DNA from: a bacterium
GTDB taxonomy: Bacteria; JACRDZ01; JAJRWM01
Assembly (NCBI GenBank): GCA_024276815.1
Contig: JAJRWM010000047.1
Location: 1 to 19,290, forward strand
Reading direction: 5' to 3'
Length of the DNA stretch: 19,290 bases
In this document: piece after piece, positions 2,578 to 16,406 of the stretch
How the letters are laid out: each line of letters opens with the position of its first letter
How positions within the stretch are numbered: the first letter of the stretch is position 1
Notes under the pieces: generated by a model
The model's database searches: none
Seen by the model: the letters and a program-made list of their open reading frames with translations, nothing else
What the model was told of the DNA's origin: nothing
Program-made: the position numbers and the translations under genes

Positions 2578-3729
2578 TTAACGCACCTTCAGGGTCATCA
2601 GGCTGAAAAGAGAAAGAATAATCGCCACGATCCAGAAACGGATCACGATTTTGGATTCTTCAATCCCACCCAATTCGAAATGATGATGCAAGGGAGCCAT
2701 GCGGAATATCCGCTTCCGGTCGCGGTAGCGGTAGCTGGCAACCTGCAGGATAACGCTTAAAGCCTCCATGACAAAAATGCCGCCGATAAAAAGGAGCCAG
2801 ACTTCTTTCTTGATCAGCACCGAGACCACCCCGAGAGCGCCGCCCAAGGCCAGCGACCCGGTGTCCCCCATAAATATCTGGGCCGGGAAAGCGTTGAACC
2901 ACAGAAAGCCCAAACAGGCTCCCATAATCGCGGCGCAAAAAACGGTTAACTCGCCGCTACCCTCAACAAAGAAAATATTAAGGTACTGGCTGAACCGCCA
3001 GTTCCCGATCAAATAGCAAAATACGGTCAGCGTCCCGGCGGCGAACATTACACAACCGACAGCCAGGCCGTCCAGGCCGTCTGTCAGGTTCACGGCGTTC
3101 GAGGTGCCGACAATGACTATGATAACCAGAGGTATATATAAAACACCTAACTCCACCAAAAGATACTTGAAAAAAGGGAAACTCAGTTTGGTCATAAAGT
3201 CCGTCGTCACGAAGGGAGTGTAATCGTTTCCGGTCGCGTAGCGCCATAACTGCCCGATATGCAGTGGATTCAAATAAAGATAGACGGCGACCGCCAGCCC
3301 CAGGGCGACCTGTCCCCAGAGTTTGACTTTAACCGACAAACCCTTGTTGTCGCTCCGTATCAGTTTTAAATAATCGTCGATAAACCCCAGTATCCCCAGA
3401 AAAATGGTTGATAAAATGCAAATCCAGATCAGGCGGTTGCCCAGATTGCCCCACAAAAAAGTGGGCACTAAAATCGAAATCAGGATTAAAAGCCCGCCCA
3501 TGGTCGGCGTGCCTTTTTTTTTCAGGTGTTCCTTAGGCCCGTCCTGATAAATATTTTCCCGGAAGGACAACGAGTTCAACTGGTTTATCACCAGTTTGCC
3601 AAAGAGCAGCGAAGTCACAAAAGCGGTTATCGCCGCGAGAACGGCCCGAACCGTGATATAACGAAATATCCGCAGAAACGACAGGGAACCGCCTTCCTGA
3701 AACAGCAGGCTGTAAAGATAGTAGAACAT
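2578..3729 (-). CDS. mraY: MraY, phospho-MurNAc-pentapeptide translocase
   Basis: This integral membrane enzyme transfers phospho-MurNAc-pentapeptide from UDP to undecaprenyl phosphate, giving lipid I. It has 383 aa from the ATG at 3729. A TTG two codons upstream (3735) is only three bases from the GGG of the ribosome site and is less likely. Hallmarks are KKGTPTMGG, the aspartate pair in GFIDDYLK (D118-D119), NLTDGLDGLA (about 214-223), FMGDTGS (D289) and the C-terminal HHH in APLHHHFE (348-350). The long N-terminus and the insert around 155-190 resemble the proteobacterial rather than the Bacillus form, supporting a Gram-negative host. The gene starts 15 nt after the terminal TGA of murF. 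Confidence 0.96.
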   Translation of the reverse strand: MFYYLYSLLFQEGGSLSFLRIFRYITVRAVLAAITAFVTSLLFGKLVINQLNSLSFRENIYQDGPKEHLKKKGTPTMGGLLILISILVPTFLWGNLGNRLIWICILSTIFLGILGFIDDYLKLIRSDNKGLSVKVKLWGQVALGLAVAVYLYLNPLHIGQLWRYATGNDYTPFVTTDFMTKLSFPFFKYLLVELGVLYIPLVIIVIVGTSNAVNLTDGLDGLAVGCVMFAAGTLTVFCYLIGNWRFSQYLNIFFVEGSGELTVFCAAIMGACLGFLWFNAFPAQIFMGDTGSLALGGALGVVSVLIKKEVWLLFIGGIFVMEALSVILQVASYRYRDRKRIFRMAPLHHHFELGGIEESKIVIRFWIVAIILSLFSLMTLKVR

Positions 3730-3744
3730 GGCCAATATCCCTTT

Positions 3745-5130
3745 TCAGCTGGCGCAAAGCGCGTCAGCCACAGTCTCCAGGGTCATCCCCCGGGAACCTT
3801 TGATTAAAATAATATCCGAACTTTTTATCTCTTTTTTAAGCTGGCTTATCAGCTTTTGCTTACTGGTAAAATGGCGGACGTTTTATTCCTTCATCCCCTT
3901 ATCCGCGGCGGCCCGGCTGATTAATTCCGCCTGCTCGCCAAGAGTATACAGCAGGTCTATTTTTTGCCGGGCGACAATTTCGCCGATCCGGGAATGAGCT
4001 TTACCGCTGATCTCGCCCAGTTCCTTCATATCGCCCAGGATCGCGAGTTTACGCCGCGAGGGGTCCAAGCAGCCGAGGAAATCAAGAGCGGCCAGCATTG
4101 ATTCAGGATTCGCGTTATAGGTGTCATTGATAATGGTCAAGCCTCTCTTGACCAGGATTTCCTGGCGTTGTTTAATCATTTTGATTTTGCGAAACGCCCG
4201 CAGTATCTGCTCTTCAGTCAAGCCCATAACCCGGGCCGCCGCCACAGCCGCCAGGCAATTGTAGATATTGTGCCAGCCGGATAAAGGCAGGCTGACCTCG
4301 TGAACCTTGCCGGTTCCCAGGTCAAGCTGGAACCTGGTCTGGAATAAAAACGTTTCGATATTTTTCGCGTTGACTTCGGCTTTTTACCTGATGCCAAACG
4401 AGACCACGCCGGCCCGGGATTTCTTAGCCATCATGCGGACCCGGGCGTCGTCGTAATTGAGAATCGCGAACCCGCCCGGAGGAAGATATTTTACCAGTTC
4501 CGCTTTTTCATCCGTTATATTTTGCAGGGTTTTGAAATAGCGCAGGTGTCCATGACCGATATTGGTAACGATACCATGCTGCGGCGCCACCAGTTCCGTC
4601 AACAACGTGATATCGCCTTTTTTATGCGCCCCCAACTCCAGGACGCCGACCTGATGACCTTTACTCAGTTTCATCAGGGTCAGCGGGCAACCGATTTCGG
4701 TATTGAAATTGCCTTCTGTTTTCAAAACAACGTATTTTTCCTTCAGTAAAGTTCCGAGGATTTCTTTCGTGGTAGTTTTACCGGTCGTTCCGGTTATGCC
4801 GATGCAGGGAACCTTGAATTTCTGGCGGTAGAATTTGGCCAGGTCAAACAGAGCCTGTTCGGTTGTCTTCACTTTAACCACAGCCGGATGGCTGAGTATT
4901 CGGGCCTGCAGATACTTGGGGTTGGCCACCACGGCCGCCGCGCCGCGCCGCAAGACCTGCTCAACAAACTGGTGACCATTGACCCGGTCGCCCACCAGAG
5001 CGAAAAAAAGGTCGCCGCTTTTAATTTTACGGCTGTCAGTCTAGGCGCCACTTAACTGGATACCCTTATCTTCCACGCTGAACTGATTGTTAAAAAATTC
5101 TTTCAAGTCAGCCCTGGTAAAATTTTCCAT
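3745..5130 (-). pseudogene. murF: MurF (UDP-MurNAc-tripeptide:D-Ala-D-Ala ligase), full length but with three in-frame stops
   Basis: Read straight through in one frame, ATG 5130 to TGA 3745 gives 461 codons, a normal MurF length, with no frameshift. Stops interrupt it at codon 30 (TAG, 5043-5041), codon 249 (TAA, 4386-4384) and codon 416 (TAA, 3885-3883). Family blocks lie on both sides of every stop: TDSRKI and GDLFFAL after the first, the P-loop ITGTTGKTTTKE (about 112-123), VTNIGHGHL, then HNIYN and INDTYNANPESM after the second, LGDMKELGE, and ILIKGSRGM after the third. GAGGATGA precedes the ATG, and ftsI ends 9 nt upstream. MurF joins D-Ala-D-Ala to the UDP-MurNAc-tripeptide and is normally essential. 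The copy may be a recent pseudogene backed up elsewhere, a gene read by suppression, or a sequencing or assembly error. Family assignment is firm; status is not. Confidence 0.9.
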
Positions 5131-5139
5131 TCTTCATCC

Positions 5140-7101
5140 TCAGGAGTTTGAAAACTTAACTGTCGATACCGATCCGGGGGAAATCTGGCTGCCAGCCGCC
5201 GGTATTTGCTCACAGACTACGCCGCTACCCTGAAATTTGACCTCAAGCTCCAGAGGCCGAAGGCGTTTAAAGACCTCCCGCATGGAGAGACCGGTGAGAT
5301 CAGGCATAAGGAAATTATCTCCTGGATAAAGAGAATTCCCGCTGTTTTTACCGCCGGACGAATGAACGGCGGCTGCTTTCATCAGGTCTTTTGAATCCCG
5401 GGCCGCACCCCGCCCCAGCTTGACGTCGAGAGGAACCTCCAGGTAAGCCATAACCTGTTTGGTTATCCGGGCGAAGAGCGGCGCCGCGGTATTAGCGGCC
5501 CACTTCTTTCGGGACGGACTGTCGAGACAGATCGCCACAGCTATCCGCGGATTTTCCAGCGGCGCGAATCCTATGAAGGTCATAATGTATTTGTCCTTAA
5601 AATAACCGCCATTGCTCGGATCGACCTTTTGCGCGGTGCCGGTTTTGCCGGCTACCCGGTAACCGGGAATCCGGGCCAAATGACCGGTGCCGTTATTAAC
5701 GGCGCCTTCCAGGAACTGTTTCAGCAGGGCGGCTGTTTCTTCCGAAATCACCTTACGCACCACCCGGGGCTTATCACGACGGATCGGAACGCCGCCGGCG
5801 GCGATAATCTCTTTGACAACATAGGGACGAACCAGCCGCCCGCCATTCGCGACCACGGAAATAGCCGCGGCCATCTGTAAAGTTGTCACCGCGACTTCCT
5901 GACCAATGGGAACGGCTCCCAGGGACATTCCCGACCATTTTTCCGGTTCGCGTAAGATCCCCTTGCTTTCACCGGCCAGAGCGATATTGGTTTTTTCGCC
6001 AAAACCAAATTTTCTGGCGTATTCATAAACTTTATTTTCTCCCAGTATCCGGGCGATTCTGACCATGCCGACGTTGCTTGATACTTCGACGACCCTCTGA
6101 AAGGTAATTTTACCGTGCGCCCTGAAATCATCAATCACGTGATTATTAAGCACCATGTACCCCTGGCCGCAGTCAACCAGTTCATCGGGAGCCACGATGC
6201 CTTCTTCCAGAGCCGCCGCCGCCGTGACAATTTTAAAAGAGGAGCCTGGCTCATAAATATCCGTGATGGCGCGGTTACGAAAATCCGATATTGGGAAACG
6301 CTGGTAGGCGTTGGGATTGAAGGTCGGCCGCACAGCCATAGCCAGGACTTCTCCGTTATCAGGATTCAAAACCACCACCTGGCCGCTCAACGCGTCAAAT
6401 TCCCGGACCGCCCAGGCCAGCTCCTTCTCGCAAAGATACTGAATATTTTCATCTATGGTAAGGGTGATATCAGCTCCGGTTGACGAAGTCGCGAAGATAT
6501 AGTCCGGAGGGAGGATAGACCGCCCCTTGGCGTCTCTTTTGCCTAAAAACCTCTGGCCTTTACCTTTGATATATTTATTGAAAGCGTATTCAACCCCCTC
6601 CAGCCCGTCGTTATCAAGACCGGTAAAACCCAACAAATTGCTGGCCAGTTCTTTTTTAGGGTAGAACCTCTTTGGTTCTTCCAGGTAGCTGACATTCTTG
6701 ATCTTTAAAGCGAGCACCCGGTTACAGACCTCGCGGCTGACCTGACGCTTCAACCAGAGAAACCCCCTGGCGGAGCTTAGCGCTTGATATAATTCATCGG
6801 GGTCTTTAGCCAAAATCCGGCCAAGCTGTCGGGACACCGCGCGAGGATTATCGATCTTTTTGCTGGCGTAAAGGGAGTATTGCTCAACGGTAACGGCAAG
6901 CTGGTGACCTTTACGGTCGGTTATCTGACCGCGACGGGGTAGCAAGCGGATGATTGAGGAATGGACTTTTTTCGCCTTTTTCCGATAAGCGTCACCTTGA
7001 AGGATTTGCAGGGAGAATAACCGAACACCTAAAACAAAACAGAGAACGTAGAGCAGGAAGAAAGCAACCCTGAGCCTGATTTTATGCGAGTCTGAGTACA
7101 A
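5140..7101 (-). CDS. ftsI: FtsI / class B penicillin-binding protein with C-terminal PASTA domain
   Basis: This septal D,D-transpeptidase has 653 aa. A signal anchor lies at about 12-32, followed by the PBP dimerisation domain (RRGQITDRKG at about 56-65) and a transpeptidase domain with SSFK (S287 to K290, nucleophile motif), SSN (341-343) and KTGTA (486-490). A PASTA domain at about 597-653 (MPDLTG onward) follows a Gly/Ser-rich linker, as in SpoVD-like and some deltaproteobacterial FtsI proteins. The start is TTG: TGA lies two codons upstream in frame, and GGGGTGA is the ribosome site. It acts with FtsW from the same operon. The neighbouring murE expected downstream is absent. Confidence 0.94.
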   Translation of the reverse strand: MYSDSHKIRLRVAFFLLYVLCFVLGVRLFSLQILQGDAYRKKAKKVHSSIIRLLPRRGQITDRKGHQLAVTVEQYSLYASKKIDNPRAVSRQLGRILAKDPDELYQALSSARGFLWLKRQVSREVCNRVLALKIKNVSYLEEPKRFYPKKELASNLLGFTGLDNDGLEGVEYAFNKYIKGKGQRFLGKRDAKGRSILPPDYIFATSSTGADITLTIDENIQYLCEKELAWAVREFDALSGQVVVLNPDNGEVLAMAVRPTFNPNAYQRFPISDFRNRAITDIYEPGSSFKIVTAAAALEEGIVAPDELVDCGQGYMVLNNHVIDDFRAHGKITFQRVVEVSSNVGMVRIARILGENKVYEYARKFGFGEKTNIALAGESKGILREPEKWSGMSLGAVPIGQEVAVTTLQMAAAISVVANGGRLVRPYVVKEIIAAGGVPIRRDKPRVVRKVISEETAALLKQFLEGAVNNGTGHLARIPGYRVAGKTGTAQKVDPSNGGYFKDKYIMTFIGFAPLENPRIAVAICLDSPSRKKWAANTAAPLFARITKQVMAYLEVPLDVKLGRGAARDSKDLMKAAAVHSSGGKNSGNSLYPGDNFLMPDLTGLSMREVFKRLRPLELEVKFQGSGVVCEQIPAAGSQISPGSVSTVKFSNS

Positions 7102-9954: not shown

Positions 9955-10899
9955 TCACCAGCCGGCTTTGAATATTCTGACCCGGTTGGCGAGCATTTCC
10001 ACCACGAAAAGCTTGCGGCTTTCCACGTCAAAATAAATTCCCATCGGAGTGGTGAACTTAAGAGCCTTGCCCTGCTTGTTGCCGATAATCCCCAGAAACT
10101 CGCCGCTATTGGAAAACACCTGGATATTACCAAATTTGACGTAGGAGCCGGCCACATAAATCCGATTATTGTCGTCAGCCGTTATCCCTTTCGGCCGGTA
10201 AAAAGTCCCCGGCGTTACTCCCCAGCCGCCGATTTGCCTGATAAACTCACCCTTCAGGTTAAAAACCTGGACCCTGGAATTGATCACGTCAACAATACAG
10301 AGATTGCGCTCGCTGTCCATGGTGATCGAATAGGGATAACGGAACTCGCCCTTACGCCGGCCCTTGAAGCCCCAGGAGAAATTAAATTTACCGTCTGTCG
10401 AGTAGACCAGGATCCGATGATTATCGTTATCAACGATGTAGCAGTTATTGGTATCCCCGTCAATTACCAGATCGGTCGGATCGGAAGGAACCAGTGGTTT
10501 TTCCCAGGCCAGCTTGAACGAACTCCGGAATTTCCCGTTTCCGTCATAGATATTTATCCGGTGGTTCCCTGAATCGGCGACAAAAACGTTCCCCCGACGG
10601 TCAACGGTCAAACCCACCGGGTACCACAACCGCCCCTCTTCCCGGCCTTTCTTGCCGAATTGAGTTATATAGTCGAAACTGGAGCTAAAGACTATCACCC
10701 GGTTATTGACGCCGTCGAGCAAATAGATTCTCCCGTTGGGACCGACTTCGACATCGCTGGGCTGGTTTAAAGGCAAGCCTTTGGATATCCTGATAGAGGC
10801 TATTTCCGTGGTTGGGATGACGTTGATAGCAGCCGATACCAACGCTGAGCAGAGCAAAAGACTGATAATTACCAGATGAAAACGTAAAGCTTTGTGCAA
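9955..10899 (-). CDS. Secreted NHL-repeat six-bladed beta-propeller protein
   Basis: This 314-aa protein has a signal peptide (hydrophobic about 8-22, cleavage near VSA-A) and no lipobox. The rest consists of six NHL repeats. Each opens with Pro-x-(D/G)-(I/L/V) plus a conserved Asp or Gly turn (PSDVEVG, PVGLTVD, PTDLVID, PYSITMD, PKGITAD, PMGIYFD) and closes with an (N/H/S)RxxVF-like strand, for one six-bladed propeller. The start is TTG with AGGAGG five bases before it, 26 nt after the cytochrome stop, so the two are co-transcribed. NHL propellers are usually protein or ligand binding scaffolds. An envelope role beside the cytochrome is inferred; no catalytic residues are visible. Confidence 0.88.
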   Translation of the reverse strand: MHKALRFHLVIISLLLCSALVSAAINVIPTTEIASIRISKGLPLNQPSDVEVGPNGRIYLLDGVNNRVIVFSSSFDYITQFGKKGREEGRLWYPVGLTVDRRGNVFVADSGNHRINIYDGNGKFRSSFKLAWEKPLVPSDPTDLVIDGDTNNCYIVDNDNHRILVYSTDGKFNFSWGFKGRRKGEFRYPYSITMDSERNLCIVDVINSRVQVFNLKGEFIRQIGGWGVTPGTFYRPKGITADDNNRIYVAGSYVKFGNIQVFSNSGEFLGIIGNKQGKALKFTTPMGIYFDVESRKLFVVEMLANRVRIFKAGW

Positions 10900-10925
10900 T
10901 TTTTACCTCCTGTAAGATGGCGCGG

Positions 10926-12563
10926 CTATTTTAACCCTTCCGTTCCCGCCTGGCCGGAATGGCAGGCGATACAAATAAATTTTAACCGCAGACGGTTTTC
11001 CTCGTCCGCTCCGTAGGAATCAGCCTTGTCCTGGAGCGCGCCGCGTTCGTGGGGATTGTGGCAGGTCACGCAAGTAACGTTGCCGGCTTCGTCCAGAGGC
11101 AGGGAAATGCTGTTCTCAATTTCATAAATAGCGAGATTTTTACGGATATTGTCCGGCGGCGTTGTCACGTGAAAGAAGCTGGCGGGATGCGGGGAATCCT
11201 GGTGGCAACGCGTGCAGAGATAAGTCATTTTCGTGGTATATAAAGTTTTCTGCTGCCAACTGGTCGCCTCATCAGTCAGGGTGGGATCGGAGGTATGGCA
11301 GTAGAGGCAGGTTTTCATAACCAGTTCACCTTCATCGTTTATCTGATCATGGGCATCAAAACGAGGATTTTTGGGATGACATTTGTAACACATTTCCGAA
11401 CGGTTAGCATAAGGCCCTCCGCGCAGGAACTTGGGATTCAACGTGCGGGCGTCTTCAGTGATATCTTTGGTTTGACAGCGGTGGTCATGGCAGGTAATAC
11501 AGCTTATTTTCCCGTTTTGCAAGGGGAACATTTTTTCATTGACCTTGATCTTGTCCGGCCGGATATTAACCGGATGGATGTCAGCCGTTAAATCCGCCGT
11601 TGCATGACACCACTTGCAGACTTTAACGAAATTACCATCAAATCTGTAAGTTATCTGAGGGGTCGTCCTCGGATCGATATTATGACAACTCAAACAGTAA
11701 CTGCCGCTGTCGTGAGGGTTTATCTTGCGGGACTTTTCGGCGAAAACGACAAAACCTTTGCGTAAAAAGTGCGGTTCCTTGCTTTCGCCGTGAGGAGCGT
11801 GGCAGGTAATGCAAGTCGTTTTACCTTCGTCCAGAGGCAACGTCAGGCTGGGGATCAATTCCCGCAGTTTTTCATCGGCAAAAGGATTTACTTGCTGATA
11901 ATGTCGCGGATCGGTTTTCTCATGACAGAAAAGACAAAGTTTGAGAAAATCAGACCGAACAGCCGATTTCTCCTCAGTGATAAGCGTCGGGTCGGTTAAA
12001 TGACAATACTGACAGTTTTTATCACTCTGGTTATGGGGGTTTTTCTCCGCCAAGGCTTCCCCGTGACAGGCTTTACACATATCGAGACGGACCTTGAACC
12101 GGCTTGACTGCCCTGGCTGACCGGGCAAACCCCGCAACAACAGGTTAGCCGCTCCTTCCTGATGCACGTCATGGCAGGTGATACAAACAATTTTACCCTT
12201 CGCCCGCCCCCGGGAACCTAGCGGGAAAACCGCGGGAATCAACATTTCCGGGGCAACGACGGCCGGGCTAAACATTACCGGATGCAAGTTGAAGTCGCTG
12301 TGGCACTGGTTACAAAGCTGCGCCGAGTTATCGACTCCCTGGATCAACAGCGCGTCCTCCGGCCTGGTCGCGGAACCAGGCTCTTCCGGGTGGCAGGTAT
12401 CGCAGCCCAGTTGCAAATGGGTGTTGGGCCGATCAAGCCGCGCCGCCGCCCCTTGTCCCGAAGCGGGCTTGTTTTCGGCCAACACAGCTACGACAACGAT
12501 CAGACAGATCAGCAGAAAAAAAACAGTTAACAATAATTTGTTTTTCGCCATATTATTATTCAC
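10926..12563 (-). CDS. 15-haem c-type cytochrome, doubled-CXXCH family (cytochrome 1)
   Basis: This 545-aa protein is exported by a Sec signal peptide (hydrophobic 10-28, cleavage near VLA-EN at 29/30). It has fifteen CXXCH haem-binding motifs, from C54 to C531. The motifs follow an ordered scheme: A (CxxCH before a D/P-rich stretch), B (CxxCH then HP), C (TCxTCH, mostly then xPH, the doubled-CXXCH signature) and D (CxxCH before NPH). They group as ABCD-ABC-ABCD-ABCD. The extra HP and PH histidines are candidate distal axial ligands. No other enzymatic domain or membrane barrel is visible. A GTG start at 12563 is chosen because AAGG lies five bases upstream; an ATG at 12551 is the alternative. 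It is first in an operon with the NHL gene and divergent from the TPR/cytochrome 2 operon. Confidence 0.95.
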   Translation of the reverse strand: MNNNMAKNKLLLTVFFLLICLIVVVAVLAENKPASGQGAAARLDRPNTHLQLGCDTCHPEEPGSATRPEDALLIQGVDNSAQLCNQCHSDFNLHPVMFSPAVVAPEMLIPAVFPLGSRGRAKGKIVCITCHDVHQEGAANLLLRGLPGQPGQSSRFKVRLDMCKACHGEALAEKNPHNQSDKNCQYCHLTDPTLITEEKSAVRSDFLKLCLFCHEKTDPRHYQQVNPFADEKLRELIPSLTLPLDEGKTTCITCHAPHGESKEPHFLRKGFVVFAEKSRKINPHDSGSYCLSCHNIDPRTTPQITYRFDGNFVKVCKWCHATADLTADIHPVNIRPDKIKVNEKMFPLQNGKISCITCHDHRCQTKDITEDARTLNPKFLRGGPYANRSEMCYKCHPKNPRFDAHDQINDEGELVMKTCLYCHTSDPTLTDEATSWQQKTLYTTKMTYLCTRCHQDSPHPASFFHVTTPPDNIRKNLAIYEIENSISLPLDEAGNVTCVTCHNPHERGALQDKADSYGADEENRLRLKFICIACHSGQAGTEGLK

Positions 12564-12626
12564 GTGAACCTTGATTCCGCCAACAAAGCAGCAATTTTAT
12601 CAGCGCCGCGTAATCATTACCTTGTA

Positions 12627-12655
12627 TTTATAATTCCTATAGCGACTTTTGTCAA
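12627..12655 (-). promoter_or_regulatory. Promoter for cytochrome 1 / NHL operon
   Basis: On the minus strand TTGACA (12655-12650) is separated by exactly 17 bp from TATAAA (12632-12627). This is close to a perfect sigma-70 promoter and would give a leader of about 57 nt before the GTG of cytochrome 1. Confidence 0.8.
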
Positions 12656-12765
12656 GATTTATTATGCGCGCGCGGAGGCTGCCGTCGCCCCGGAACAGCC
12701 CCCGGCGAACTGACGCGGTCGGGTTTATTTATTAACGATTAATGGAGTTTTTTAATTTTTTATCC

Positions 12766-12793
12766 TTGCAAAGGGTATACAGATTCTTATAGA
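12766..12793 (+). promoter_or_regulatory. Promoter for TPR / cytochrome 2 operon
   Basis: TTGCAA (12766-12771), a 16-bp spacer and TATAGA (12788-12793) form a moderate sigma-70 promoter, about 50 nt before the TPR start. It lies about 110 bp from the divergent cytochrome 1 promoter, so a shared regulator could act on both. No operator palindrome was recognised between them. Confidence 0.5.
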
Positions 12794-12848
12794 ATGTAAT
12801 AAGATACGGGGGAAGGCAAAAATAATTCCAAGGAGACCAAAGCTACTT

Positions 12849-14681
12849 GTGCGAATAAGCAGGGTCGTTTCTCGTCTTAAACAGATATTTTATTTAGCTT
12901 TCTTCCTGCTCCTGATCTTATCTTCCATCACTTTATCTTTGCCCGGCAAGGCGTTAGCTGGCAACGTCTCGGTCGCCGCCAGGGGGAAATACGCCCAGGC
13001 CATCAAAGCTCTTGAGGACAAAGACCAGGCCAAGGCCCGGGAACTGTTGCGTCAGGCGATCAAGGACTCTCCTGAATACGCTCAAGCCCACCTGAAACTG
13101 GGACAGCTCTACAGTGAACGCATTACGATGTTTGACAAAGCGCCGATTGAGTTGATGACCGTAATTGAGCTTAGCGACAACCCGGCGAGCAATCTGGCCC
13201 TGGTCGCCAGGTATAATTTAGGCATCATCTTCCTGAAGATCGGCGACTATGACAAGGCGCAGACGGCTTTTCAGAAAATAATCGAGTTGGACAGCGATTT
13301 CGACAAAATTCCGGAAATTTACAATTACCTGGGAGTTACCTACTACCACAAGGATATGTACAAGGAGTCTATCAAGCAGTTCAAACGGTCGATCCAGCTC
13401 AATCCTTCTGAAGACAAGGTGGTAAAGTTCAATCTCAAAAGCGTATACAAGAGAATGGAGCATTACAACCTGGGGATGACCTACTTTTTTATGAAGGATT
13501 ATAACGCGGCGATTGAGGAAATGTTGATAGCGGTCGAGGTTGACAGCAATTACTTTGAAGCCTTGTTTCACCTGGGCGATATTTATCTGGCCAAGGGTAT
13601 GCCGGGAGAGGCTTTGCGTTTCTACCAGCGGGCGGTCAGGGTGAATCCCAACCACCGCGACATTCCCCAGGTTTACAATGGCCTGGGCGTCACCCTTTAT
13701 AAAAAGGGCCAAACCATGAAAGCCATTGGCTTGTTGCGGAAAGCGCTGACGTTGCGTCCCAAATACGGACAGGCCAGAAAGAACCTGCGCAATATCTTTA
13801 ACAGCATCGACCAGAAAAAACTGTTGACCGCTGACCCGGGAAAAGACAAGGAAAAATATATTGAGGAGGCGACCAGCCTGGCCAAGGATTATGTGCTGGT
13901 CGGTCTTTATGAGCGCGGAATTACCTTGCTGGAACAAATTATACAGCTCGACTATGAAGCGGAAGGCGTTTTTGATCATCTGATTGACGCTTTAACCCAA
14001 ATGGGCGATGATTATCTGGCCAAGGAGAACTATAAACACGCCGTCAACACCTACAAGAGGATTATCGAACTTAAAGGAGAAACTCCGGAGCTTAACTACA
14101 AACTGGGGATTTGTTATTACAAACAGGGCAAATACTGGTTCAACGACGCCATCGAGGCCTTCGGCAAGGCGCTGGAAGTAAAGGACGCCCGCTATTATCT
14201 TGGCTTAACCTATCTTGAGCGCCGGGAGTATGTCGAGGCGGCCTTTCAAATCGAGGAGGTGTTAAAGAGAAACGAGGAGAACAGCAAAGCCCATTTTTTA
14301 CTGGCTAAAATATACCGGGCGCAGGGGCGTAACGGTTATGCCCTGGATGAAGTGAAGAGGGCCATTGAGCTGGAGCCTGACAACGTGGAATACCAGACCT
14401 TCATGAGCACGATTTCCGGCTCGTCGACCGACGAGTTTTCCGGCGCGGACGGCTTTCGTGACATCAGCGGAGCCGAGCAAACACCAAGATTGGTGAATCT
14501 TTTGGACTCGCCTGATGTTCTAAACAATAAAGGAGTCAGCTACGCCAAGAACAACATGCTGGAACGGGCCGCAGCAAATTTTGAGGAAGGTCTGCGGAAA
14601 GAACCGGGTTCGGTGGAACTTCGCAATAATCACGCGTTGCTGCTTTTAATGCAGGGCGACCTGGAAGAAGTTGAAAAGTAA
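12849..14681 (+). CDS. Secreted TPR-repeat protein (ends at an in-frame stop)
   Basis: This 610-aa protein has a signal peptide (hydrophobic about 13-31, cleavage near ALA-GN at 37/38). The remainder is roughly a dozen tetratricopeptide repeats, recognisable by W/Y/L-G-Y-A-P spaced helices such as NYLGVTYYHKDMYKESIKQF, NLGMTYFFMKDYNAAIEE and LGICYYKQGKYWFNDAIEAF. TPR solenoids are scaffolds for protein complexes. Here a periplasmic role in assembling or holding the neighbouring cytochromes is inferred from context. GTG is the start; AAGGAG lies 13 bases upstream, rather far. The TAA at 14679-14681 falls inside a TPR helix and similar sequence continues in frame after it, so this product is probably truncated (see the tail feature). 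Confidence 0.88.
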   Translation: MRISRVVSRLKQIFYLAFFLLLILSSITLSLPGKALAGNVSVAARGKYAQAIKALEDKDQAKARELLRQAIKDSPEYAQAHLKLGQLYSERITMFDKAPIELMTVIELSDNPASNLALVARYNLGIIFLKIGDYDKAQTAFQKIIELDSDFDKIPEIYNYLGVTYYHKDMYKESIKQFKRSIQLNPSEDKVVKFNLKSVYKRMEHYNLGMTYFFMKDYNAAIEEMLIAVEVDSNYFEALFHLGDIYLAKGMPGEALRFYQRAVRVNPNHRDIPQVYNGLGVTLYKKGQTMKAIGLLRKALTLRPKYGQARKNLRNIFNSIDQKKLLTADPGKDKEKYIEEATSLAKDYVLVGLYERGITLLEQIIQLDYEAEGVFDHLIDALTQMGDDYLAKENYKHAVNTYKRIIELKGETPELNYKLGICYYKQGKYWFNDAIEAFGKALEVKDARYYLGLTYLERREYVEAAFQIEEVLKRNEENSKAHFLLAKIYRAQGRNGYALDEVKRAIELEPDNVEYQTFMSTISGSSTDEFSGADGFRDISGAEQTPRLVNLLDSPDVLNNKGVSYAKNNMLERAAANFEEGLRKEPGSVELRNNHALLLLMQGDLEEVEK

Positions 14682-14935
14682 CTGCTTACCGCGGCGCTGT
14701 TGAATCCGGTTGAACCGCGGGTTTTTGTAAACCTGGCGATTCTTTACCATAAGAAGAAGATGTTTTCCCTGGCCAAGGAAAACCTGGCCAAGGCCAAGAA
14801 GATAGAAAAGAACCTGAGTAGTATCTATGATATCCTGGGAGAACCGGACGCAGATATTTCAAGTATCTCGCCGATCTGGATAGTTATCAGGAAGTAGGTC
14901 TTTATGAGACGTTTAGTTATGAAACCACCTTTTAA
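14682..14935 (+). pseudogene. Displaced C-terminal tail of the TPR gene (stop plus likely frameshift)
   Basis: The codons after the TAA continue in frame as TPR-like sequence: LLTAALLNP, VFVNLAILYHKKKMF, SLAKENLAKAKKI. In this frame the text then turns unlike a TPR end (GEPDADISSISPIWIVIRK, stop at 14897). If one base is restored near 14846-14850, the other frame gives a more natural ending, AEYFKYLADLDSYQEVGLYE and so on, stopping at 14935. The gene therefore seems to carry one nonsense and one frameshift change at its 3' end, or two sequence errors. The extended tail would overlap the start of cytochrome 2. Confidence 0.6.
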
Positions 14936-16406
14936 TAAGCGGCGAAGTGGCCTGCTGATATTGATAATAGCTGTTTGCTTGTTTGTTAATGTCGTCAGCG
15001 TGTTGGCGGAAAACAGCGATGAAGAAACCAGTTCGATAAAAGATTTCGCTGCCCGGAAAAGCGACGAACCCAACCCTCACCTGGAGTTTGAGTGCACTGA
15101 ATGTCATGAGCACAAACCTGACCGGAATTATGACACCAGGGAGACCGTTGATTTCAAGGGCGGGGATATTATAACCACCTGTTACGGCTGCCACGACAAG
15201 CAGGCGAACCTGCACCCGGCCGGCGTCGTGCCCTCGATGAAAACTCCTGATCATCTGCCTTTGGATATCGAGGGTAAAATCACCTGCGCCACCTGCCATA
15301 ATATGCATTTAAAAACTGTCGGCAATTATATTCTGCGTGGATTCACCAAAGAAGAGGGCAACCTCTACGAATGGCGCACTGATTTATGTTTTGACTGTCA
15401 TGGCGAGAATTTCAATGAAAAGAATCCCCATCGTTTGCAGTTGGAAAAGCAAAGCTGTAATTTTTGCCACTCTTCCAAGCCAACCGAGAAAGACACCGCC
15501 CAGACAGTTCAGTTACGCAAGGACATCATTTTAATCTGCTCCTTTTGCCATAATAACGTTCGTAAGAAAAACCACCCCTTGAACGTTGACCCAACCATCA
15601 AAGTGCCGAAAGAATTGCCACGGGACGCTTCCGGGCGGATCACCTGCGGCACCTGCCATAATCCACATGGCACCGCCCGGACAATCCACTTTTTGCGTGA
15701 GGCCTACATCATGTCGCTGGAGGAGAAAAAATATGTCAAGCCGCACTACGACAAGGACAAATGCACCGCCTGTCATATTACCCGCCCGAGTCCTGATGAC
15801 ACGGTGGAAACGGTCGATTTCCGCTATAACGGTAATTTCATCGCTTTATGCAACAGTTGTCACGGCCTGGACGCTGACATCCACCCCGTGAACATCAAGC
15901 CGCCGCCAACGATGACCGTGCCCCCCGAACTGCCCCTGGACAAGGACGGCAAGTTGACCTGTGTCACCTGTCATGAACCACAGGGCGTCAAACCGGGCAC
16001 CAAGCTCCTACGGGGCAAATACAAAAAACGAAACGATCTCTGCTTCCGCTGTCATGACCGCGAGGAATTTAACCGCATGAATCCCCATAAAGATCAGGAA
16101 CGGCAGCGTAAATGTATGTATTGTCACATCGTGCCTCCTGATCGCGACATTGACGATCATGAATCTATATTAACCAATATCAAAGGCACTATTATCATGC
16201 TTTGTATCCGCTGTCATCCCGATAAACCTCATCCGTCTAACTTCAACCATCTGGTTCGTCAGACCATGATTGTTCCCAAGCAGTTTCCCCTGGATCAGGA
16301 GGGCGGTATCACCTGCACCACCTGTCATAATCCTCACCTCGATCCGTCAAAAGAGAAAAAGTTGATGCGTAAAGGGCTTGACTGTAATTCCTGTCATGTT
16401 CTTTAA
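14904..16406 (+). CDS. 15-haem c-type cytochrome, doubled-CXXCH family (cytochrome 2)
   Basis: This 500-aa exported protein has a Sec signal peptide (hydrophobic about 16-33, cleavage near VLA-EN at 35/36, the same site motif as cytochrome 1). Fifteen CXXCH motifs run from C64 to C494, in the order ABCD-ABC-ABCD-ABCD, identical to cytochrome 1. C-type motifs such as ITCGTCHNPHG and ITCTTCHNPH are typical of doubled-CXXCH proteins. B-type motifs are followed by HP (LHPAG, NHPLN, IHPVN, PHPSN), and the histidine may ligate a neighbouring haem. AGGAAGTAGG lies five bases before the ATG. ATG 14919 would also keep the signal peptide but has no ribosome site. It probably carries electrons through or outside the envelope; no substrate-reducing domain is visible. 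Confidence 0.95.
   Translation: MRRLVMKPPFNKRRSGLLILIIAVCLFVNVVSVLAENSDEETSSIKDFAARKSDEPNPHLEFECTECHEHKPDRNYDTRETVDFKGGDIITTCYGCHDKQANLHPAGVVPSMKTPDHLPLDIEGKITCATCHNMHLKTVGNYILRGFTKEEGNLYEWRTDLCFDCHGENFNEKNPHRLQLEKQSCNFCHSSKPTEKDTAQTVQLRKDIILICSFCHNNVRKKNHPLNVDPTIKVPKELPRDASGRITCGTCHNPHGTARTIHFLREAYIMSLEEKKYVKPHYDKDKCTACHITRPSPDDTVETVDFRYNGNFIALCNSCHGLDADIHPVNIKPPPTMTVPPELPLDKDGKLTCVTCHEPQGVKPGTKLLRGKYKKRNDLCFRCHDREEFNRMNPHKDQERQRKCMYCHIVPPDRDIDDHESILTNIKGTIIMLCIRCHPDKPHPSNFNHLVRQTMIVPKQFPLDQEGGITCTTCHNPHLDPSKEKKLMRKGLDCNSCHVL

Follow-up and report, generated by a model that had tools for sequence, protein, structure and literature searches.

The gene murF, encoding UDP-N-acetylmuramoyl-tripeptide--D-alanyl-D-alanine ligase, is interrupted by three in-frame stop codons in a bacterial draft genome assembled from a metagenome (GCA_024276815.1), and the question raised by this locus is whether the stops belong to the organism or to the deposited sequence. 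The window, i.e. the whole stretch of DNA analysed here (19,290 nucleotides), is one entire contig (JAJRWM010000047.1, designated C211) of this draft, which comprises 246 contigs and 2.39 Mb and has a completeness of 91%. We consider it likely that the deposited stops are base-substitution errors and that murF is an ordinary, single-copy gene, predicted to be functional, in the living organism. A sequence-only reading of the window had left three options: a relic backed by a second murF or a MurE-MurF fusion, stop suppression, or base-substitution error. The last of these is by far the best supported, as such stops proved to be genome-wide, made by substitutions only and even over contigs.

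The murF gene lies on the minus strand between positions 3745 and 5130 and spans 461 codons. Translation of this strand confirmed a single frame with three stops and no frameshift, as had been described, and no indel was present. The stops are a TAG at codon 30 (5041-5043, minus strand), a TAA at codon 249 (4384-4386, minus strand) and a TAA at codon 416 (3883-3885, minus strand), and the frame is terminated by TGA. When the sequence was shuffled 2000 times, no shuffle had an in-frame stop count as low as the four of murF. The gene is flanked directly upstream by an intact gene for a SpoVD/FtsI-type penicillin-binding protein (5140-7101, minus strand), without murE in between, and directly downstream by an intact mraY (2578-3735, minus strand). 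The cluster continues with ftsW and murD on the downstream side and with ftsL, rsmH and mraZ on the upstream side. No internal stop was found in any of these neighbours, in line with the claim that the remaining dcw genes of the window are intact. The terminators read for the neighbours were likewise correct (TAG for ftsW and cytochrome 1; TAA for mraY, ftsL, rsmH, mraZ, cytochrome 2 and the mutase).

For profile searches the stops of murF were replaced by X. The translated product matched TIGR01143 (murF) with 433.7 bits against a cut-off of 288.6, covering positions 1-418 of the 418 of the profile, and this score ranked fifth among the 60 genomes searched. The domains PF01225, PF08245 (the ATP-binding middle domain) and PF02875 were all found over their cut-offs. 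As in the MurF family, Mur_ligase, Mur_ligase_M and Mur_ligase_C follow each other in this order together with the P-loop GITGTTGKTTTKE, the profile is matched over its full length, and the gene sits between the FtsI-type protein gene and mraY in a dcw cluster. It differs from the family in that the deposited sequence carries three in-frame stops and that no murE precedes the gene. Judged by these sequence features, murF is probably an ordinary member of its family. No murE is present in the dcw cluster of the window, where only positions 5131-5139 separate the FtsI-type gene from murF; an intact murE is located on a separate contig (C131; L002, L039). In two relatives from the same phylum (G001 and G003) the ligase matches with a murE-like score are likewise found on other contigs than murF, and the relocation of murE may thus be old in the phylum.

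Three stops within a single gene are what a real pseudogene could present, murF having been recently inactivated in this strain while another ligase substitutes for it or the cell wall has been lost. The family score of murF remains in the top range and hence shows no decay, the remaining dcw genes and the distant murE are intact, and neither a second murF nor a murEF was found in the genome. At 48-150 bits, the other matches to the murF profile stayed under the cut-off (288.6), and the strongest of them was murE. The option of a relic backed by a second copy or a fusion therefore received no support from a search of this 91%-complete genome. A drifting relic with lost constraint or indels was ruled out, since the gene has no indel and keeps the fifth-highest score of 60 genomes. 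Stops of the same type also interrupt the genes of SerRS, CysRS, S1, MurG and PyrH, not all of which can be dispensable, and we regard inactivation of murF in the strain as extremely improbable.

Scans of genome contig and viral contig collections yielded no relatives of murF, and a plasmid collection gave distant ones only. The nearest genomes compared belong to other families of a sparse phylum, and their murF is about 37% identical. The sequence-only reading had looked to an alignment with close relatives for the residues at the three stops. Such an alignment was informative at codon 30, where Ser was the commonest residue among 29 relatives, which otherwise had Val, Cys, Ala, Gly or Thr and never Glu. 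With these distant relatives it pointed to no single residue at codon 249, a variable loop position, or at codon 416, where Glu, Arg, Lys, Asn and others occur.

Mid-gene stops were then considered in a sample made of the window and 100 other contigs, with 963 kb of readable sequence. A coding-potential model was used to find stops with coding in the same frame on both sides, and true gene ends were removed by eye. The curated set, checked by eye and with homologues, comprises 55 stops (33 TAA, 19 TAG and 3 TGA) in otherwise intact genes, those without homologues being less certain; the density detected is about 57 per Mb. The interrupted genes include those of the ribosomal proteins S1 and L1, SerRS, CysRS, MurG, PyrH, NuoG, HypF, PrmC (two stops), citramalate synthase, AroF, PTS enzyme I, GalT and others, many of which (S1, SerRS, CysRS, MurG, PyrH, L1) are normally essential or universal. 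Each of the three TGA cases falls within a single Pfam domain match (GAF, TPR_16 and AAA_23). The window itself holds a further example, an in-frame TAA (14679-14681, plus strand) in a TPR-repeat gene starting at 12849, beyond which another 71 codons of TPR coding follow in frame. At the affected sites, homologues from phylum relatives have no stop, and in a control no internal stop was found in rpoB of 80 named genomes (107,210 aligned codons).

The distribution of the stops over contigs was not over-dispersed (p = 0.56). At the observed density, three stops would fall within 1.25 kb of each other with a probability of 11% for the sample and about 25% for the genome, and the cluster in murF is thus compatible with chance, because such stops occur genome-wide at about 57 per Mb. 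In a symmetric junction test, which counts breaks without a nearby start codon, 19 same-frame breaks were found versus 3 that change the frame. Of the latter, two were judged artefacts of overlap and one a normal gene start, which leaves no convincing frameshift; indels are rare or absent in this genome. Sequence error can consequently not be dismissed on the grounds that three nonsense changes and no indel would be too unusual for it. Stops of this kind are not special to murF, and the three are most likely not a real feature of the organism.

The residue lost at each stop was read from the homologous regions of relatives and from the PDB, which made 22 sites decidable (for the stops in AsnB and in a subtilisin, PDB searches left the lost residue undecided). 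Glu was the lost residue at 15 of the 22. It was unanimous among homologues in CysRS (HH[E]NE, 17/17), citramalate synthase (7/7), AroF (7/7) and HypF (5/5), and also in the smaller sets available for FabK and NuoG (4/4 each) and for UbiA, YgiQ and PrmC (3/3 each). The other sites correspond to Ser (murF codon 30), Leu (S1), Asp (SerRS), probably Tyr (NirSir, sulfite-reductase-like) and variable residues. Expected shares of Glu were derived from the codon usage of the genome. Uniform substitution would give 18% (3.9 sites) versus the 15 observed (p = 3e-7), and a symmetric G:C>T:A spectrum 57% (12.6 sites) versus 15 (p = 0.20). The Glu excess thus fits a G:C>T:A spectrum and not uniform errors, and the share of Glu codons affected is about 0.2%. 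Where the homologues are unanimous, Glu accounts for 9 of the 10 lost residues, which exceeds the symmetric G:C>T:A prediction (p = 0.03); the TGA count falls short of this prediction (3 vs 8.5, p = 0.02). Together with the rpoB and rpoC comparison described below, the Glu surplus and the TGA deficit leave slight room for a process specific to Glu.

Such a process could be stop suppression, in which a Glu-charged tRNA would insert glutamate at part of the UAA and UAG codons and yield full-length murF and other proteins despite real stops. The strong Glu excess, with unanimous sites in CysRS, citramalate synthase, AroF, HypF, FabK and NuoG, is what it would produce, and a code in which UAR means Glu while UAA still serves as a stop occurs in Blastocrithidia, a eukaryote (PMC12153298). 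The genome studied here resembles that nuclear code in that its in-frame UAA and UAG stand mostly at Glu positions and UAA still terminates. It differs in being bacterial, in having only about 0.2% of its Glu codons affected, in its use of UAG and UGA as terminators as well, in having affected non-Glu sites and TGA codons, and in the presence of RF1/RF2 without a suppressor tRNA having been found.

Several of these differences weigh directly against suppression. TGA makes up three of the mid-gene stops, and sites of the Ser (murF 30), Leu (S1) and Tyr (NirSir) type are affected. Among 660 long open frames, 422 end with TAA or TAG (TAA 275, TAG 147, TGA 238), and two class-I release factor genes of the RF1/RF2 type are present. 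No UUA or CUA anticodon, as expected of a suppressor reading UAA or UAG, was seen among the tRNAs typed, with neighbours (30 of the 33 loci found), a set from which several normal tRNAs are also missing, so that this absence is not proof. Back-up stops are fewer after TAA (19%) and TAG (10%) than after TGA (28%), which counts against leaky UAA and UAG, because leakiness would select for the opposite. The release factors and the use of all three stop codons as gene ends bear out the sequence-only reading in holding a general stop reassignment to be unlikely; suppression, which it had kept as an option, is disfavoured by the affected TGA codons, the release factors and the common TAA and TAG ends, and we hold it to be very unlikely. 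We give hardly any credence to its most specific form, a free-living bacterium with a low-level dual meaning of UAA and UAG, in which scattered in-frame sites (three of them in murF) are glutamate and the suppressor tRNA is encoded in the 9% of the genome that is missing. To our knowledge no bacterium reads UAA or UAG as glutamate, and this one would be the first known if the stops were real.

A G:C>T:A spectrum would also be left by a living mutator, that is, a lineage without 8-oxoguanine repair by MutY which truly carries many such changes, or a mutation-laden sub-population caught by the assembly. Indeed, no MutY over the family cut-off was found in the genome. The same absence over the cut-off holds for the three phylum relatives, and the matches resemble endonuclease III. 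Yet the homologues in these relatives are uninterrupted at the stop sites, and a clone in which SerRS, CysRS, S1 and murF were all broken could not survive. We regard a mutator as scarcely probable.

For the preferred reading, base-substitution error or damage, the following course may be proposed. Isolated base substitutions in the deposited sequence would have created the three stops of murF and some 52 others, with an enrichment of G:C>T:A changes that turn the Glu codons GAA and GAG into TAA and TAG. Their likely source would be oxidised-guanine damage, or G-to-T miscalls, which found their way into the consensus of a metagenome assembly with thin coverage. Where the Illumina MiSeq miscalled G and C, it most often did so as G-to-T and C-to-A (PMC4381044). 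When a plain error profile of the MiSeq kind, with some rates guessed, was tried, the fit was poor (p = 4e-5), and a damage-like spectrum must therefore be assumed. The stops share with oxidised-guanine (G>T/C>A) short-read artefacts that they arise by substitution only, are enriched in G:C>T:A, and are evenly scattered regardless of gene function; they differ in a slightly higher Glu share at invariant columns and a lower TGA share than a strand-symmetric G:C>T:A process would give. Most likely, then, the stops are errors rather than bases present in the cells, and a chemical cause of this kind is a likely one.

As artefacts, these stops are a warning that a draft passing completeness and contamination checks can hold dozens of conserved genes with false stops, in a Glu-heavy pattern that mimics stop-codon recoding. 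A genome-wide baseline is needed before pseudogenes, the loss of essential genes or recoding are called in such genomes.

A search for missense changes covered the invariant positions of rpoB and rpoC, with 12 and 92 genomes for comparison. No clear G:C>T:A missense excess appeared in the two genes, where only 1-2 such changes were expected, which gives the test low power. In RpoB (L229 on contig C57), 12 residues are atypical for columns with a conservation of 97% or more across 92 other genomes, versus 3-4 in phylum relatives; the 12 are of mixed types, and half of them fit single G:C>A:T steps. An IspH-like gene (L038, 9383) was considered as a case of a lost start codon and dropped, the change not being G>T.

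Two further observations concern gene neighbourhoods. The prmC gene (L390, 9847-10362 of contig C226), which has two in-frame TAG codons, one of them at the invariant Glu of the lEiG motif, adjoins a release-factor gene on that contig. In the window, two multihaem cytochrome c genes, an NHL-repeat protein gene and a TPR protein gene adjoin the dcw cluster (9955-16406), a neighbourhood suggestive of electron transfer in the periplasm or outside the cell.
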